Assembly: GCF_014359955.1 (NCBI RefSeq)
Contig: NZ_JACIYL010000019.1
Coordinates: 1-14,946 of the forward strand
Direction: 5' to 3'
DNA from: Thermogutta sp.
Lineage (GTDB): Bacteria > Planctomycetota > Planctomycetia > Pirellulales > Thermoguttaceae
DNA: 14,946 bases
The translations under genes and the position numbers were made by a program. The notes under the pieces were generated by a model. The model did no database searches. It saw only the letters and a program-made list of their open reading frames with translations, and was not told the DNA's origin. Numbering within the stretch: the stretch's first letter is position 1; every line of letters starts with the position of its first letter. Positions 1,812 through 14,832 of the stretch are shown piece after piece.

Positions 1812-1887
1812 CATTGGTTTATTATGACGTGAACGCAGTATGCGTTGGTTGACGGAAGAAAACCATTTTGTCCGTGAGGAACGTTAT

Positions 1888-3315
1888 ATGATTCTGCAAG
1901 GTCGGAATGCGCTCTGGATATACTGGAGTTGTTTGTGTGTCTTAATAGTTAGTCTCATTTGTGCTCGCAGCGTCAATGCGGCAACGCCTCAGCGTCTTCG
2001 TGTCTCTGATAATGGACGTTACCTTGTGACTGACAAGGGAGAACCATTTTTCTATCTTGGTGATACCGCGTGGGAATTGTTTCATCGACTCAATCGCGAG
2101 GAAGCAGAGCTGTATTTATCCGACCGCGCGAAAAAGGGATTTACTGTCATCCAGGCGGTGGTATTGGCGGAACTCGATGGCCTGCACACTCCCAATGCTT
2201 ACGGCCACGTCCCGCTTTTGAATGACGATCCCACAAGACCGGCTGTCAAAGAAGGTCCCGATAATGACTATTGGGATCACGTCGATTGGATTGTTCAGCG
2301 TGCGGAAGAACTCGGTTTATTCATCGGAATGCTACCGACCTGGGGTGACAAGTGGAATAAAAAGTGGGGCGTGGGACCGGAAATCTTTACTCCGGAAAAC
2401 GCCAGGATTTACGGACGATGGTTGGGGCGACGGTATCGAGACCGCGCCATCATCTGGATTCTTGGTGGTGATCGGAATCCGGAAAATGATCGGCATCTTG
2501 CCATTGTGCGGGCACTTGCCGCAGGACTTGCCGAAGGGGATGGCGGCGCCCATCTAATGACATACCACCCGATGGGTGGATCAAATTCTGCGACGTGGTT
2601 TCACAAGGATAGTTGGTTGGCGTTTAATATGTTTCAGTCCGGGCACAGTGCGTTCAATCTGCCGAACTACAAAACGACGCTGGCTTTGCGGGACTTGATG
2701 CCTATCAAGCCTGTGTTGGACGGCGAGCCACGTTATGAGGATCATCCCGTCAATTGGAAACAGGGGAAAGATTGGTTCGACGATTGGGACGTTCGTCAGG
2801 CGGCCTACTGGTCGATGTTGAGTGGCGCGTGTGGGCATACGTACGGGAATCATAATATCTGGCAAATGTACGAGCCGCCCCGGAAGCCCATCTCCTTCGC
2901 TCGTACGCCGTGGAAAGAAGCCCTCCATCATCCGGGCAGTGCCCAGATGGGCCTCATGCGGGCGATCCTGACCCAGCGTCCCTGGTACAGGCTGGTGCCG
3001 GATCAATCGCTCATCCAGGGTAACGAGCTGGAAGGGGCCGACCATCGCCGTTGTGCACGCTCCATTGATGATGTGTTTGTACTCGTTTATCTGCCTACCG
3101 GTGGATCACTGAGGGTTCACTGGGAAACAGCCTCGCGAGAGGAGGTCCAGATATGGTGGTTTGATCCACGCACGGGAAGAATTCACGACGGCGGTCGGAA
3201 AAGACCGGGGGAATCCTTGGCTCTCCGTGCTCCAGGGAGTGGCCGGGGCCAGGACTGGCTTCTCATTTTGGATAAAGTCTCGGCCGGTCTTACGCCACCT
3301 CATGTCGCTCGCTAA
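1888..3315 (+). CDS. Secreted GH140-like glycosidase (DUF4038 apiosidase-like domain plus C-terminal beta-domain)
   Basis: The product is 475 aa. The family is a (beta/alpha)8-barrel; characterised GH140 enzymes cleave apiosyl linkages of rhamnogalacturonan-II. The start at 1888 follows GAGGAAC and gives a clean signal peptide (residues 1-31, ending SVNA). An in-frame ATG at 1840 would only add 16 polar residues. The mature protein opens with a typical DUF4038 segment (LVTDKGEPFFYLGDTAWELF). ILGGD195RNP and LDGE280PRYE match the positions expected for acid/base and nucleophile. A beta-rich C-terminal part (about 385-470) resembles the 'putative collagen-binding' domain often found in these proteins. 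It lies 92 bp after the CARF-HEPN gene and convergent with the Csx3-like gene, but has no functional link to CRISPR. The exact substrate is unknown. Confidence 0.85.
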   Translation: MILQGRNALWIYWSCLCVLIVSLICARSVNAATPQRLRVSDNGRYLVTDKGEPFFYLGDTAWELFHRLNREEAELYLSDRAKKGFTVIQAVVLAELDGLHTPNAYGHVPLLNDDPTRPAVKEGPDNDYWDHVDWIVQRAEELGLFIGMLPTWGDKWNKKWGVGPEIFTPENARIYGRWLGRRYRDRAIIWILGGDRNPENDRHLAIVRALAAGLAEGDGGAHLMTYHPMGGSNSATWFHKDSWLAFNMFQSGHSAFNLPNYKTTLALRDLMPIKPVLDGEPRYEDHPVNWKQGKDWFDDWDVRQAAYWSMLSGACGHTYGNHNIWQMYEPPRKPISFARTPWKEALHHPGSAQMGLMRAILTQRPWYRLVPDQSLIQGNELEGADHRRCARSIDDVFVLVYLPTGGSLRVHWETASREEVQIWWFDPRTGRIHDGGRKRPGESLALRAPGSGRGQDWLLILDKVSAGLTPPHVAR

Positions 3316-3363: not shown

Positions 3364-4674
3364 TCAGCGATCTGGATTGTCGCCCGGTGACTTTGGGCGA
3401 GGACACAGGGCATTCCAAAAGGGGAGGAGCGATTCCTGAAAAGAACTCACAATATTATCCAGCTTTACTGCGCGGTCCAGGCCTGTAGCATGCCCTCTCC
3501 AAATATTGTCGGCCGTTTTATTGAGCGTCAAACTTGGTGGCTCGCGAGGATTGGCTGAGGCAATGATTGCGACAATTCGCTTGTGCAGTTGATGTTCCCG
3601 AAGAGCCTCGACCCATGGCTGGGGCGAGCCCTGATCCTGATACACAATGATGAACCGATCGATGAGATTGAACAGCATTTCCCGTCCCGGTGGAATCCGT
3701 TGAGGGGGTGATGCCTTCAGATGACCTCCCGGCAGATCCACGATGAGCACATCGAAATAATCGCGGGCGATGGTCAGTTGTCGAGTTAAGAGCTTCTCCA
3801 TTTCATGTGTCCACCCGATCTTTTGTAACTTCCGCAATTGTTCTGCCTGTTCTGGCGATTCCTGGCGAAGAAGGAGGTACCACTCGGGTGTCGGAGACTG
3901 ACCATCCGAATCAAAACGCCAGGCCCAGTAGCTGGCCCTTATAGCGCAGTAATAGAGCGCTCTGCTCAATACCGATTTGCCGCAATTGGGATCGCCCACC
4001 ACGCCCAGAGTGACCGAGCCCTGCTTCGGCCGGAGTAAAGTGTGAATCCAACCGATGGCCTCTGAGGTTAACCCGGGTGCTTCCCCTTTGCCCGGCCACA
4101 CGGAAACGTATCCATCCCGCGGCGAGATACAAACGATGCGCCAAACTCCCTGGGAAACCGCAGCCGACGCAATTCCCGCGTAGACTTCCACCGGGCCGGA
4201 GCCCGTCAAACAAATGCTTGAATTACCCGGTAGCTTCTTCAGTTCGTCGCCGACTGCCTCGACGACTTTTGATATTTCCGCTTTCGTCAACGGCGGGCTG
4301 GGTCTGATATCCAGTTTCACAAGGGCGATACTGTGCTCGTCACCAAACTCCCGGTAGTGCACGGTGAAGAAGTCCCGGGGGGAACACGATGGCTGAGTCG
4401 AGCTGTCGCCCAAATTCCGGGCAGCTTGATCCTGTGGCTTGCGCACTTCCACGCAACCACCTTCCGCCGCAATCATGGCAGCCGCATGGGCGTACATCCA
4501 GACAGATCCCGGTCCCGTGATCACCACTTTTCCGCCCCTGATCAAATTTCGCGGGAGAGGCATTTCACGGAGTACGGACGGCGGCCAAAAGCGAACATGT
4601 GGCTCGGGATGAAATGTGAGAAGGGTTTCATTCGGATTCCGCTCAATAGAAAACCATGTGGTTTTGTGGTCCAT
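3364..4674 (-). CDS. Tandem Csx3-like domains fused to a P-loop ATPase (Csx3-AAA type CRISPR ancillary protein)
   Basis: The product is 436 aa. Csx3 is a small cyclic-tetra-adenylate-binding protein; the archaeal form degrades cA4 (ring nuclease). Two Csx3-like units are visible. Unit 1 (about 1-85) has the glycine loop G54-P-G-S-V-W-M-Y61. Unit 2 (about 113-200) has G158-S-G-P-V-E-V-Y165 followed by S184-P-R-D-G188. Residues 218-436 form a P-loop NTPase: Walker A G227-D-P-N-C-G-K-S234, and a hydrophobic strand ending VLIVD313LPGGH as Walker B. From memory, A. fulgidus Csx3 uses H60, D69 and R71 (in 'DPRLG'). Unit 1 has none of these and unit 2 keeps only the arginine, so cA4 cleavage may be lost and binding kept. 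The start at 4674 has GAGGTGG 9 nt before it; an in-frame TTG at 4857 is unlikely. The membrane-protein gene lies 205 bp upstream on the same strand. Confidence 0.78.
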   Translation of the reverse strand: MDHKTTWFSIERNPNETLLTFHPEPHVRFWPPSVLREMPLPRNLIRGGKVVITGPGSVWMYAHAAAMIAAEGGCVEVRKPQDQAARNLGDSSTQPSCSPRDFFTVHYREFGDEHSIALVKLDIRPSPPLTKAEISKVVEAVGDELKKLPGNSSICLTGSGPVEVYAGIASAAVSQGVWRIVCISPRDGYVSVWPGKGEAPGLTSEAIGWIHTLLRPKQGSVTLGVVGDPNCGKSVLSRALYYCAIRASYWAWRFDSDGQSPTPEWYLLLRQESPEQAEQLRKLQKIGWTHEMEKLLTRQLTIARDYFDVLIVDLPGGHLKASPPQRIPPGREMLFNLIDRFIIVYQDQGSPQPWVEALREHQLHKRIVAIIASANPREPPSLTLNKTADNIWRGHATGLDRAVKLDNIVSSFQESLLPFWNALCPRPKSPGDNPDR

Positions 4675-4879
4675 GGCCCGCTTCCACCTCATTTTCGACC
4701 GAACCGGATCGTTTATTTCATCCTCATTGGGGACCGAGACGGGTAAGCTCTTCCTCGAGCATACGCAAATGGCGTTCGATTTTGGGCTTCTGTTGATTTT
4801 AATCGCCGCACAGCTTTTTTCGACCGAGGAACCATTCTCCCGAATACCCGCTCTCAACGTTTTTACCGTGTGCCAGTAT

Positions 4880-5557
4880 CTATTCTTTGGTGGACCGCGT
4901 CACGTGACGCTTCTCTGTCAGCCAGCCAACCGCGGGAGGTATCCAGCACAAATTGGAGGCGATGATTTCCATCGCTGTGGCCACCTGTGTGGTGGGACTG
5001 AATCCCAAAAGGCGTGCCACAAGAAGCCCAACGGGAACAATGAGGATAATTCCTAAACTGGCCAGCATGACAGGATGATGGAAGTACCTGCGAAAGGCTG
5101 TTGTCCAATCGCCGGTTTCCTGGCGGAAGTGAAGAATTCCAGCGAGATTTGCCCCAATCTGGTCGCTCATCGCATAAAAATAGGGGATGTAGAACCCCTC
5201 GACGCTGTACACATCCAGCCCCAGGAGTCGGCTGACAGCGTCAATGATCCAGGGAGCGATCATGCCCAGGAATTTGCCCCAGGCGTAGCTTTCGGCGATG
5301 GACGCGCCCTTTCTCAGAATCCGCTGCCGGAGTGCGAAAAACCCTTCGAAGATACTTTCCGCTTCACCCCCCAGCGTTCTCACAAGCCATTGTCCCAGGG
5401 CGGCTCGTTGAAAACCGAGCGTGTCGAGAATCACACCCGCAACAAATCCTCCAATATATCCCGCTAATGTGTAGCGCAGAAGTTCCTCAAAGCCAGATTC
5501 GGATTCCTGTTCGTGCGGGACTTCTGATCGTAAAGAGTCGCTGGATTTATCTGCCAT
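4880..5557 (-). CDS. Multi-pass membrane protein of unknown family, upstream of the Csx3-ATPase gene
   Basis: The product is 225 aa and I do not recognise its family. A charged cytosolic-looking N-terminus (1-25) precedes hydrophobic stretches at about 28-49, 94-114, 163-184 and 192-214. The segment 119-142 is amphipathic, and the C-terminus (215-225) is basic. Glycines are frequent in the first helix (AGYIGGFVAGV), suggesting helix packing. There is no signal peptide or enzymatic motif. The start at 5557 has GAGGGG about 9-10 nt upstream; an in-frame ATG at 5593 would add 12 residues. It is the only gene near the Csx3-ATPase gene on the same strand, so a role as membrane partner or effector of that protein is plausible. 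That rests on position alone. No CARF domain is visible, so it is not an obvious Cam1/Csx23-like sensor by itself. Confidence 0.7.
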   Translation of the reverse strand: MADKSSDSLRSEVPHEQESESGFEELLRYTLAGYIGGFVAGVILDTLGFQRAALGQWLVRTLGGEAESIFEGFFALRQRILRKGASIAESYAWGKFLGMIAPWIIDAVSRLLGLDVYSVEGFYIPYFYAMSDQIGANLAGILHFRQETGDWTTAFRRYFHHPVMLASLGIILIVPVGLLVARLLGFSPTTQVATAMEIIASNLCWIPPAVGWLTEKRHVTRSTKE

Positions 5558-5998: not shown

Positions 5999-8011
5999 AT
6001 GAAGTCTGCCGAAATCCCTGATGTACGTCATCACCGTTTTTCCCGGAGAGGGCTTCTCCAGGGATCACTCGCTGCCCCGTTGCTGCTGGCCATCCGGCAG
6101 TCCGTGGCACTGGCGGGCGCGGACAGTTCGCCGAGACCGGGGACGGTTCAGTGGTTGACCGATCACCTCGGCGTGTTTTGGGGCCCGATTCATGTGGGGG
6201 TGTTGAGAAACGGTCACGAGCTGGCACTCTTCGATTGTGGCGACAGAGAGGTGTTTGACTGGGCAGGGCAAGAAGGTCTCAAAATCAGCACGGTGTTCGT
6301 CACCCATCATCATCGGGAACAGGCTCGGGGGCTCGAGGGGCATTCAGCGGAAGTCCAGGTCGTTGTACCGGAGGACGAGCTTAAGCTCTTCACGGAAGTG
6401 ACGAGTTACTGGACTGCACCAGGGACCCGCTGGCACATCTACAACCAGCATCCGCACCATTGGACGTTGCCTGAACCCATAGCCGTGACTCGAACCGTGC
6501 GAGACGGCGAATCGTTGACCTGGGGACCGGGTCGGATCACAGTCGTGGCTACGCCGGGGCACACGGACGGCGCCGTCAGCTACTGTGTGGAGGTGGACGG
6601 CCGGCGAATCGTTTTCTGCGGCGATCTGCTGTCCGGGCCCGGGCAGCTTCCCGATCTGTTCTCGCTTCAGAAAGGATTCCAGCGGGGGCAGAGGAGAATA
6701 TCTGATTACCACGGGTATCTAGGGGCCCGAGAATGGCTGGAGGCGAGCCTTCGCCGTGTCCTGGAGCTCAAACCCGATCTTCTCGTCACTTCACACGGAG
6801 GGATTATCACCAGGCCGCATGAGGCCATCACGAGCGTTCTCGACCGTCTGGAAACACTGTACCGAAACTATGTCTCCACGTCGGCCCTGCGGCATTATTT
6901 CCCCGAACTTTTCACCGAATTTGCAGGGCAGCCCGATCAGTTGCCTTTCCAGGAAACCCTGGAGGTACCTCCCTATCTCCGGCACGTCGGGACAAGCTGG
7001 ATTCTTATCTCTGAAGATGGAGCGGCCTTCGTTATGGACTGCGGGAATCGCCGGGTTATCGAGGCGTTGGAGAGCCTGCTCTCCCGGGGTACGATCAAGC
7101 GAGTGGAAGGCCTGTGGATCACCCATTACCACGACGATCACGTGGACGCCGTTCCCGAATTCCTCCAGAAATTTGGCTGCCCTTGTTACGCTGTTCCGTC
7201 GGTGGCCGGTGTGGTCACCCGGCCGCTGGCGTGGCGTTTGCCGTGTATTTCACCTGCTCAGGTCAAAGTTGATCACGTGCTTGCAGACGGAACGACTTTC
7301 TCGTGGCGCGAGTTTCGCTTAACGGCCTTTGAATTTCCTGGACAAACACTGTATCACGGCGCGCTTCTGGTCGAGAGCGGTTCGGATCGGCTACTCTTCG
7401 TCGGTGATTCGTTCACGCCCTCGGGAATTGATGATTACTGCATCCAAAACAGGAATTTTCTTCATGATGGAATGGGGTTTCAGCGGTGCCTTGAACTGGT
7501 GATGAAACTGCGGCCCACTCACATGTTCAATTGTCATGTGGATCGAGCGTTTCGGTTTACTCCCGATTTTTGCGAGGCGATCATCGGCCGATTGAAAGAA
7601 AGGCGGCAACTTCTTGCCCGGTTGCTACCCTGGCCGGATTCACATTTTGGAATGGACGAGTTTTGGCTCAGGTCAGATCCCTACGAGCAAACTGTCAAAG
7701 CAGGCGACCTCGCAGCCTTCAAAGTGGTGGTTTTCAACCATTTGGATAAGGAAGCGGAGTTCCGGGTGCGTGCCGTTCCACCTTTCTCGTGGCGCAAATC
7801 ACGAGTGCCGGCGGCACGCCGCTCGTGGAAGGAATGGGCCCCTGTCCTTGCGGGCCTGCAAACGGAAACGGCGGTGACATTAACGGTCGGAGTCCCCCGC
7901 AAGGCGATGCCAGGTCGCCACGTTGTGACATTCGACGTGGCCTGTCCGTGGGAAGATTCGGCGCCACGGTTTCTGTTAGGATTCGCGGAAGCGGTGCTGG
8001 TTGTCGAATGA
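5999..8011 (+). CDS. Tat-exported tandem metallo-beta-lactamase-fold protein
   Basis: The product is 670 aa. It starts at the ATG at 5999, 8 nt after GGAGG; the open frame extends upstream to a TTG at 5939 that lacks such a site. A Tat signal is visible: F14-S-R16-R17-G-L-L followed by a hydrophobic stretch to about residue 42. The first MBL domain (about 50-290) has T102-H103-H-H105-R-E107-Q108 in place of HxHxDH, then H188, D209 and H266. The second (about 320-560) has a canonical H376-Y-H378-D-D380-H381, D470 and H513, while the usual GHT motif reads G-Q449-T (H453 nearby). About residues 565-670 look like a beta-sandwich. Two metals are likely in domain 2 and a weakened site in domain 1. 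Substrate unknown; MBL hydrolases act on esters, thioesters, lactams or nucleic acids. It ends 6 bp before the convergent sulfatase gene. Confidence 0.82.
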   Translation: MKSAEIPDVRHHRFSRRGLLQGSLAAPLLLAIRQSVALAGADSSPRPGTVQWLTDHLGVFWGPIHVGVLRNGHELALFDCGDREVFDWAGQEGLKISTVFVTHHHREQARGLEGHSAEVQVVVPEDELKLFTEVTSYWTAPGTRWHIYNQHPHHWTLPEPIAVTRTVRDGESLTWGPGRITVVATPGHTDGAVSYCVEVDGRRIVFCGDLLSGPGQLPDLFSLQKGFQRGQRRISDYHGYLGAREWLEASLRRVLELKPDLLVTSHGGIITRPHEAITSVLDRLETLYRNYVSTSALRHYFPELFTEFAGQPDQLPFQETLEVPPYLRHVGTSWILISEDGAAFVMDCGNRRVIEALESLLSRGTIKRVEGLWITHYHDDHVDAVPEFLQKFGCPCYAVPSVAGVVTRPLAWRLPCISPAQVKVDHVLADGTTFSWREFRLTAFEFPGQTLYHGALLVESGSDRLLFVGDSFTPSGIDDYCIQNRNFLHDGMGFQRCLELVMKLRPTHMFNCHVDRAFRFTPDFCEAIIGRLKERRQLLARLLPWPDSHFGMDEFWLRSDPYEQTVKAGDLAAFKVVVFNHLDKEAEFRVRAVPPFSWRKSRVPAARRSWKEWAPVLAGLQTETAVTLTVGVPRKAMPGRHVVTFDVACPWEDSAPRFLLGFAEAVLVVE

Positions 8012-12845: not shown

Positions 12846-13421
12846 ATGCCGTTCACCGTGCTCGACCATACAGCCGATCTGCATCTGAGAATTGACGCGC
12901 CCTCGCTGGAAGGGCTTTTCGTAGAAGCGGCGCGGGCAATGGTGGGACAAATGTTTCCCAGCGTGCTCTCCGAACGGACGGAAGACGACGCCGCGCAGAA
13001 CGAGGCCGATTCAGAGGGCCCCACCGGTTCTTCCGGTGAAAAGCCATCCGGGACCAGAAACGAGGTTCCGCCGATGGATCAGTCCACGGTGGTGCGAGAA
13101 ATCACGGTCTCGCTGGGCGAACCGCTGCCGTCGATCGATGAGCGATTGGAAGGAGAGTCGGAGAAACTTCCTGCCGTTTGGGAAGATCTTTTCCACGACT
13201 GGCTGAGCAAAGTTCTCGTGTTGTGCACGGCGGATCGCCTCTTGCCAATAAAATATCGCGTGATGTTTGACAAAGAGGGACTACTCGGCCGAATTGTCGC
13301 ACGGCCCCTGGATCCCCAGCGCGATCTGGGAGAAATCGAGATCAAGGCGGTGACGTATCACGGCCTGAAGCTCGAAGGCACGAAAGGCGGCTACCGAGCG
13401 GAGGTGATCTTCGACACGTGA
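12846..13421 (+). CDS. Archease, activator of RtcB RNA ligase, with an acidic linker insert
   Basis: The product is 191 aa. Archease helps RtcB ligate RNA ends carrying 2',3'-cyclic phosphate and 5'-OH in tRNA splicing or RNA repair. Seen: L-D7-H-T-A-D11 at the N-terminus, SLEGLFVEAARAMVGQMF (20-37), WEDLFHDWLSKVLVL (112-126), GEIEIKAVTYHGL (162-174) and a C-terminal VIFD190, the usual archease order with the conserved acidic residues. Most archeases are about 140 aa. The extra length is an acidic, Ser/Gly/Pro-rich linker at about 42-78 plus a charged stretch at 92-108. The start is at the family-typical position, after AGGGAG. No rtcB gene is in the window. It is convergent with the glycosyltransferase-like gene (37 bp apart). 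Confidence 0.9.
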   Translation: MPFTVLDHTADLHLRIDAPSLEGLFVEAARAMVGQMFPSVLSERTEDDAAQNEADSEGPTGSSGEKPSGTRNEVPPMDQSTVVREITVSLGEPLPSIDERLEGESEKLPAVWEDLFHDWLSKVLVLCTADRLLPIKYRVMFDKEGLLGRIVARPLDPQRDLGEIEIKAVTYHGLKLEGTKGGYRAEVIFDT

Positions 13422-14460: not shown

Positions 14461-14832
14461 TCAACCTGTGGGCGAGCCTTCGGTCCAATACTCGAATCGC
14501 CACGATTGACACTCGGGATCGACGAGAGAAAGTTTCGCCCGACCGCGCAACCTGTTCCCGTCCAGGACGAGTTCCAGCATGAGGTTGGTGCGCTTGCTCA
14601 GAAGGTAGGTCCCCTCATCCCAGCGACGGACCGTCCCGCGGCCACCGGAGATTTCGCCTTCGTATTCCAGATAAATCCTGCGATGGTCAGGCAGTTGCTG
14701 GGCAGGAATAATTTTTCCGGTGACTGGGATTTCGGCAAGCGCCCATGTGGCGAGGAGCGTCGCCGTTTCCAGCATAAAGTCGTAATGAAGGCCGCGGGGG
14801 CTGTCGTGTTCCAGAATGACAAACCGGCGCAT
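14461..14832 (-). CDS. Stand-alone LigD-type 3'-phosphoesterase (PE) domain protein
   Basis: The product is 123 aa. PE domains trim 3'-phosphate and 3'-ribonucleotide ends of DNA so that a ligase can seal them; in bacterial non-homologous end joining they are usually part of LigD. Seen: R-F-V-I-L-E-H9-D10-S-P-R-G-L-H16-Y-D18-F, the signature metal- and phosphate-binding block. YLEYEGEISGGRGTVRRWDEGTY (54-76) follows, matching the family's 'FEG-I-GTV-WD-GTY' pattern. The length equals one complete domain, so this is a free-standing form, not a truncated LigD. No ligase, primase or Ku gene lies beside it within the window. The ATG at 14832 has only a weak ribosome site, so the start could be slightly different. 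Stand-alone PE proteins are known in bacteria and archaea. Confidence 0.87.
   Translation of the reverse strand: MRRFVILEHDSPRGLHYDFMLETATLLATWALAEIPVTGKIIPAQQLPDHRRIYLEYEGEISGGRGTVRRWDEGTYLLSKRTNLMLELVLDGNRLRGRAKLSLVDPECQSWRFEYWTEGSPTG

Follow-up and report, generated by a model that had tools for sequence, protein, structure and literature searches.

The ring nuclease Crn3 (Csx3) of A. fulgidus (AF_1864; PDB 3WZG, 6YUD), whose cleavage of cyclic tetra-adenylate (cA4) depends on Mn2+, is a free, single-domain protein with the residues H57, H60, D69, R71 and H80. As reported in PMC7371418, the substitutions H60A and D69A abolish cA4 cleavage and R71A and H80A cut it strongly; most contacts with cA4, including those of G45, R46 and R71, lie on the face that carries D69. 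Proteins in which a single Csx3 unit is joined to a nucleoside triphosphatase (NTPase) are known from cyanobacteria (PMC7371418, PMC9676260), and these fused proteins are grouped with Crn3 in print (PMC12409355, PMC9676260). Here we describe protein A, a fused protein of the planctomycete Thermogutta sp. with two Csx3-like units in tandem before a P-loop NTPase domain. It is encoded in a stretch of 14,946 nucleotides (the window), which is the whole of contig C219 (NZ_JACIYL010000019.1) of a 4.64 Mb genome (GCF_014359955.1; G000). To judge from its sequence, protein A is of a known kind, called Csx3-AAA or, in print, Csx3', here in a tandem form. We propose, with about an even chance of being right, that it is a receptor for cyclic oligoadenylate (cOA) that arose from a dead ring nuclease and is coupled to an NTPase of the SIMIBI class.

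Protein A (442 aa) is encoded on the reverse strand at 3364–4692, and all of its features given below lie on that strand. The start, placed by comparison with a congener (G001), is the ATG at 4692–4690; a longer start at the TTG at 4857 is probably not coding, because the matching stretch in G001 contains a TGA and the G001 open reading frame begins at the equivalent ATG. The G001 copy is 81% identical, and the ratio of nonsynonymous to synonymous substitution rates (dN/dS) between the two is 0.235. Residues are numbered 1–441, the residue that follows the start Met being number 1, so that the numbers run five higher than in the first-pass annotation of this DNA. Csx3-like unit 1 (residues 12–90; 4420–4656) contains the motif TGPGSVWMYAH, unit 2 spans residues 104–212 (4054–4380), and the P-loop domain spans residues 220–441 (3367–4032). 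The presence of two Csx3-like units, suggested by that annotation, is borne out by PADLOC, in which the Csx3-AAA model PDLC01045 spans unit 2 and the P-loop domain (E 4.4e-13) and the Csx3 model PDLC01040 covers 35 residues of unit 1 (E 1.9e-6), as well as by pairwise alignment of the two units with hhalign (probability 97.8, E 7e-13). In hhalign comparisons with five planctomycete Csx3 proteins whose catalytic residues are intact, the probability was 87.5% for unit 2 and only 61.3 for unit 1. The match remains a weak one by sequence: it falls under the curated cut-offs of the Csx3 models of Pfam (18.4 versus 21 bits) and NCBIfam (14.7 versus 55.4), and the best PDB E value for the Csx3-type units is 0.24 with the single sequence and 0.0047 with the family profile.

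The fate of the Crn3 residues was followed in the 12 rows of an alignment (A3) that includes the window protein and omits the G001 copy and a frameshifted copy (L050/L051/L038), with Crn3 positions mapped through the hhalign and tally alignments. In the window protein, the positions of H57, H60 and D69 are occupied by Ala, Ala and Lys in unit 1, where the D69 position is the least sure of the mappings, and by Ser, Val and Ser in unit 2. Across the 12 rows, in unit 1, His is found at H57 in none of the rows, His at H60 in 1/12 and Asp at D69 in none; in unit 2, the corresponding counts are 1/12, 0/12 and 2/12, and His stands in the H80 column in 3/12. Part of the ligand face is nevertheless kept in unit 2, where the equivalents of Gly45, Arg71 and Arg46 are present in 12, 9 and 7 of the 12 rows, respectively. 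Since the catalytic His/Asp set is absent from both units, the Crn3 mechanism should not work in protein A, as far as can be told from these residues.

Unlike the Csx3 units, the NTP site is invariant in these rows. The first-pass annotation had described a complete domain with Walker A at G227–S234 and Walker B at D313, and both motifs are intact: Walker A is GDPNCGKS (residues 232–239; 3973–3996), with Gly232, Asp233, Pro234, Gly237, Lys238 and Ser239 each in 12/12 rows, and Walker B is DLPGG (residues 318–322; 3724–3738), with Asp318, Gly321 and Gly322 each in 12/12. Between them lies a D-x-D-x-x-S-P-T-P motif (residues 260–268; 3886–3912) whose Asp260, Asp262, Ser265 and Thr267 are likewise found in every row, and many of the residues that surround the NTP site do not vary across this alignment either. 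AAA+ ATPases are marked by the AAA+ fold with its lid domain, sensor motifs and an Arg finger. Fold searches with the predicted structure matched the P-loop domain to HypB, MinD/ParA, dethiobiotin synthetase and CTP synthetase, all of which we take to be SIMIBI-class proteins, at sequence identities of 8–18%, and such a fold gives no function. Among the 50 VIA-align rows, no aligned chain was recognized as AAA+ (NtrC-like is mentioned in one title and a FleQ AAA+ partner in another), an absence from a list that excludes nothing, and a viral fold library returned a single match at E ≤ 0.001, nameless and uninformative. The domain is better read, on the modelled structure, as a SIMIBI-class P-loop fold; members of this class work as NTP-driven dimer switches.

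The nearest relatives of known architecture are the cyanobacterial Csx3-AAA (Csx3') proteins (PDLC01045), exemplified by slr7080 of Synechocystis. Like protein A, they have a Csx3-type N-terminal part and, after it, a homologous P-loop domain, and they are encoded with type III genes; the protein A family profile (A3) matched slr7080 with a best-domain E value of 1e-7 among 9 proteins. From its Csx3-NTPase make-up and its place, we infer that L066:20158–21090 is slr7080. This protein has one Csx3 unit where protein A has two, and CPDGEG where protein A has the D-x-D-x-x-S-P-T-P motif; inspected by eye, as were all the cyanobacterial units below, it too is without H57, H60 and H80, although D69 is present, whereas neither unit of the window protein has the Crn3 catalytic set. 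Allocoleopsis and two Nostoc plasmids have a free csx3 gene immediately ahead of the fused gene. The fused unit of Nostoc N6 keeps H57, H60, D69 and H80, that of Nostoc UHCC 0302 keeps H57, H60 and D69, and that of Nostoc ATCC 53789 keeps H57 and D69; the fused unit of Allocoleopsis, like that of slr7080, has lost H57, H60 and H80, and the free Csx3 of Allocoleopsis has the full set. A fused protein of Pseudanabaena galeata (L085:3001–4326, 441 aa), encoded with cas10 nearby, has the order Csx3-Csx3-P-loop in one chain as protein A does, so planctomycetes are not unique in having the tandem architecture as such; its unit 2 keeps H57, H60, D69 and H80, and by sequence it resembles more closely the cyanobacterial proteins with a single Csx3 unit. 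Judged from these sequences, a plausible path leads from a free eraser with a fused copy beside it to a single chain, followed by decay of the eraser chemistry. No tandem degenerate Csx3-NTPase was met in the Csx3 and type III CRISPR literature searched, a statement that applies to those sources and makes no claim of absence from print.

Of 396 genomes of the order, eight, the own genome included, contained relatives detected with a protein A profile built from three sequences. A scan of genome contigs with seven members yielded 13 loci; after places retrieved twice had been merged (L021/L040, L034/L045, L035/L044, L036/L047, L037/L048, and L038/L050 with L051, which give identical matches) and the own and G001 loci added, 14 distinct loci remained, from Planctomycetota and one Lentisphaerae genome. 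Weak Csx3-AAA matches (L012–L019, E 2e-4 to 1e-3), lone Csx3 proteins (L007–L009) and L004/L023 (30% over 76 aa) were not counted as protein A. All eight carrier genomes contain a Cas10 of the Cmr2 kind, compared with 44/396 genomes of the order (hypergeometric p 1e-8); by genus, the counts are 6/6 carriers and 27/144 (p 3e-5), p values that are optimistic in that the carriers are partly related. The two draws of 396 genomes were assumed, from their agreeing handles, to be identical. A reading of protein A as a phage or plasmid gene was rejected, as no relatives were present in viral contigs and none were found in plasmids by tblastn with protein A as the query, the cyanobacterial plasmid cousins having surfaced only with slr7080.

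The neighbourhoods, searched in fetched flanks of at most 10 kb with PADLOC applied to 44 chosen neighbour proteins and five proteins of the own Cmr contig, show cas or CARF genes near protein A at 9/14 loci. The own locus and G001 have a CARF-HEPN neighbour; L039 has Cas10 and CARF-Lon; L041 has Csm3/Cas7, CARF-RelE and Csx15; L049 has two III-D type Cas7 proteins, a Cas10 detected by tblastn and a weakly matched CARF nuclease whose gene overlaps the protein A start. CARF-Lon is also found at L042, at L050/L051 (where the protein A gene is frameshifted) and at two related loci, with a free Csx3 at L036/L047 and with a free Csx3, Cas1 and a CARF-PDDEXK protein at L037/L048. At these two related loci the free Csx3 has the catalytic residues and lies 2–4 kb from protein A, as expected if protein A is not the eraser. 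At the other five loci (L040, L043, L044, L045 and L046), no cas or CARF gene was found among the proteins tested; contig ends truncate L043 and L046, an RtcR-like activator at L040 is matched in its AAA and helix-turn-helix part only, and the genome of L045 has a CARF-Lon gene 13 kb from protein A. The type III locus at L041 also contains a 475-aa reading frame (L041:2911–4338, forward strand) that ends right where the protein A homologue starts; it matches the deaminase zinc-binding family dCMP_cyt_deam_1 of Pfam just over the cut-off, has weaker nucleotidyltransferase and OB-fold matches and no PADLOC family, and is possibly an undescribed accessory protein.

In the window itself, two genes from protein A and not remarked upon in the first-pass annotation, a CARF-HEPN ribonuclease gene of the Csx1/Csm6 kind occupies 560–1795 on the forward strand. 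Its product matches TIGR02221 above the cut-off (100 bits) and PDLC01825 over nearly its whole length (E 3.6e-63). The HEPN motif of Csx1/Csm6 has the form R-x4-6-H, and the protein combines a CARF domain with the HEPN motif RNSCAH. Between this gene and protein A lies an apiosidase-like gene (1840–3315), and the gene order of the locus is kept in G001, inverted as a whole. Elsewhere in the own genome, contig C231 carries a type III-B Cmr operon together with a Card1-like CARF nuclease. The Csx3 domain, the homologous P-loop domain and the type III association that mark the Csx3-ATPase fusions are all seen for protein A, and the proposed link to cOA signalling has become stronger than the annotation could know, given the CARF-HEPN neighbour and the neighbourhoods of the relatives.

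Several further observations concern the surroundings. Contig C1007 of the own genome (L088:946–10659) encodes a second Cas10, 31% identical to that of L039 and preceded by what appear from the translations, by eye, to be Cas6, Cas8, Cas7, Cas5 and Cas3 of type I; together, they form an apparent type I/type III cassette. In G001, a gene of the phage integrase family (L020:13260–14159; PF00589, 35 bits) adjoins the CARF-HEPN gene on the side where the window contig ends, and the CARF-HEPN/protein A locus may belong to an island. No array-like repeats were found in the Cmr contig or around protein A in G001, and the window contains no Rfam match at the gathering score and no tRNA. A LigD 3'-phosphoesterase-like protein (14461–14832, reverse strand) and an archease (12846–13421, forward strand), both encoded in the window, look ordinary.

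If protein A is a receptor, its two Csx3 units would most likely pair up as an internal pseudo-dimer and bind a cyclic oligoadenylate that Cas10 produces, probably cA4, without Crn3-type cutting. Ligand binding would switch the fused SIMIBI-type P-loop domain, which would then hydrolyse or transfer a nucleotide phosphate and so act on a cellular target or a companion effector. The architecture, the intact NTP-site motifs, the SIMIBI fold, the loss of the Crn3 catalytic set and the association with Cas10 and CARF genes were all computed, and to them this proposal would add ligand binding, coupling and a substrate.

A number of points weigh against this proposal. Unit 1 resembles Csx3 weakly, its residue mapping is unsure beyond 34 columns, and residues 87–105 of the predicted structure fall below 50 in the predicted local distance difference test (pLDDT). 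On the ligand face, unit 2 of the window protein carries Ser at the Arg46 position, which is Arg in 7/12 rows, and an Asp follows Arg71 directly in 10/12 rows and could serve another cleavage chemistry. The low identity of the SIMIBI matches (8–18%) is accompanied by Foldseek template-modelling scores, normalized by target, below 0.5. Loss of the catalytic set is not general to Csx3', given that the fused unit of Nostoc N6 and unit 2 of the Pseudanabaena protein keep His57, His60, Asp69 and His80.

The main rival, which we consider unlikely, takes up the Asp just mentioned. Protein A would still be a ring nuclease but would act by another chemistry, for example through a metal-free Arg-Asp pair of unit 2 (residues 191–192), with the NTPase resetting or powering the reaction. 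Arg191 is present in 9/12 rows and Asp192 in 10/12, the ring nucleases characterized before Crn3 are described as metal independent (PMC7371418), and the fused proteins are classed with Crn3 in print, as noted above. The absence of H57, H60 and D69 from both units of the window protein speaks against this alternative and leaves the suggestion in the first-pass annotation that the unit removes cOA unsupported, as far as the Crn3 mechanism is concerned; the separate Csx3 with catalytic residues at the loci of two relatives also speaks against the alternative.

A cOA sponge, akin to the sequestration that the first-pass annotation also raised, is less probable still. Here the dead units would hold the ligand with an affinity set by NTP binding and would damp the CARF-HEPN protein and other effectors, in keeping with a protein that has lost the catalytic set, kept Gly45 and Arg71 in unit 2 and is located with cOA-activated effectors; the invariant NTP site and the large residue set around it exceed the needs of a passive binder. 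We think it slightly less probable again that the Csx3 units bind no cOA and are a scaffold for an NTPase that accompanies type III loci but has some other role. The Csx3 match under curated cut-offs, the lack of universality of Arg46 and Arg71 and the five loci with no cas or CARF gene among the proteins tested would fit such a scaffold, which is countered by the strong association with Cas10 and CARF genes and by the retention of Gly45 and, mostly, Arg71 in unit 2.

The first-pass annotation had paired protein A with the product of the adjacent gene, protein B (225 aa; 4880–5557, reverse strand), which it described as a four-helix membrane protein of no known family. The gene is real: the product is 88% identical to its G001 counterpart, with a dN/dS of 0.12 that indicates purifying selection. 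Two membrane segments are well supported (hydropathy at least 1.6) and the other two are weak (peaks at 1.06–1.2), leaving two likely and up to four possible. Profile searches of Pfam, NCBIfam and PADLOC with protein B gave nothing above cut-off; they gave no CARF or Csx3 match, although the presence of a Csx23 model in the libraries was not confirmed, and a PDB sequence search found no meaningful relative. Its structure predicted alone has a pLDDT of 52. The type III membrane effectors Cam1 and Csx23 share the idea of a cOA-driven membrane output, but in these, as described, a sensor domain of their own is fused to the transmembrane part (PMC11014256, PMC11229360), whereas protein B has no recognized sensor domain.

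Pairing of the two proteins as a conserved unit is not supported by the comparison of loci, and a lack of co-occurrence in other genomes is what the first-pass annotation itself had named as refuting the pair. Protein B adjoins protein A at 2/14 loci (own and G001), both in one genus, and was found in 2/296 genomes of the order, the same two; among 392 genomes of the phylum it is whole only in these, with a fragment in a distant planctomycete (G120), and it is absent from viral contigs. The fragment, perhaps a gene remnant, is a 33-residue stretch in a 53-aa frame that shares 64% identity with the C-terminal part of protein B (G120:C71:13161–13259; L080 about 6162–6260); in that genome the Csx3-AAA profile, applied in place of that of protein A, gave a lone Csx3 on another contig. 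Two congeners have both proteins and two (G002 and G003) have neither, a pattern that one gain or loss could explain. An insertion unit comprising the two genes was considered and rejected, as an empty site could not be demonstrated: the apiosidase gene and a 63% identical CARF-HEPN gene of G002 lie on separate contigs, and nothing but these two genes aligns between the G002 DNA and the window. A promoter-like match between the two genes (4823–4796) is within chance (3 found in the region versus 1.4 expected). Protein B is a neighbour so far restricted to the genus and probably not a regular partner of protein A. In the least probable of the alternatives, protein A, driven by cOA and ATP, would act on protein B and thereby alter permeability or signalling. 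Although B adjoins A on the same strand in both genomes that have them, is missing with A from G002 and G003, is under purifying selection and has type III membrane effectors as precedents (PMC11014256, PMC11229360), it is absent at 12/14 protein A loci, is represented outside the genus by the 33-residue fragment, is separated from A by 187 bases and contains no known sensor or defence family.

A different companion is suggested by the neighbourhoods. CARF-Lon (PDLC01981) is encoded near the tandem Csx3-NTPase at L039:14280–15656, L042:3669–5153, L036:6925–8205, L037:5466–6890 and L051:7259–8857. At E ≤ 1e-20, PDLC01981 was matched in 8/8 protein A genomes and in 10/33 other Cas10-bearing genomes (p 5e-4), and at E 1e-3 the latter count rises to 14/33 (p 0.003); the 33 are those of 36 Cas10-bearing genomes without protein A that remain when the three weakest Cas10 matches (G031, G505 and G759) are omitted. 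The CARF-Lon match of the own genome is a partial one (92 bits, contig C267), and CARF-Lon is also present in G002, which has neither protein A nor a Cas10 match. The association was noticed post hoc among related genomes and is to be taken as a lead, not a result. It names a candidate partner for protein A. A bolder and more tentative version of our proposal, which we would put at well short of an even chance, is that an eraser became a receptor, in which two dead Crn3-like units in one chain sense cOA and so power an NTPase or kinase of the SIMIBI class, with CARF-Lon as its possible target or companion.

Were this so, the output of type III systems would in this case run through nucleotide-powered switching or phosphotransfer and not through a nuclease, protease or pore. 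The planctomycete family offers a clean test object for this notion: the ring-nuclease set is gone and the NTP site is invariant in 12 rows, so any effect of cOA would have to depend on binding and the NTPase. Should the proposal prove true, receptors would have been made out of ring nucleases, and the known outputs of type III systems would gain an NTP-driven one.

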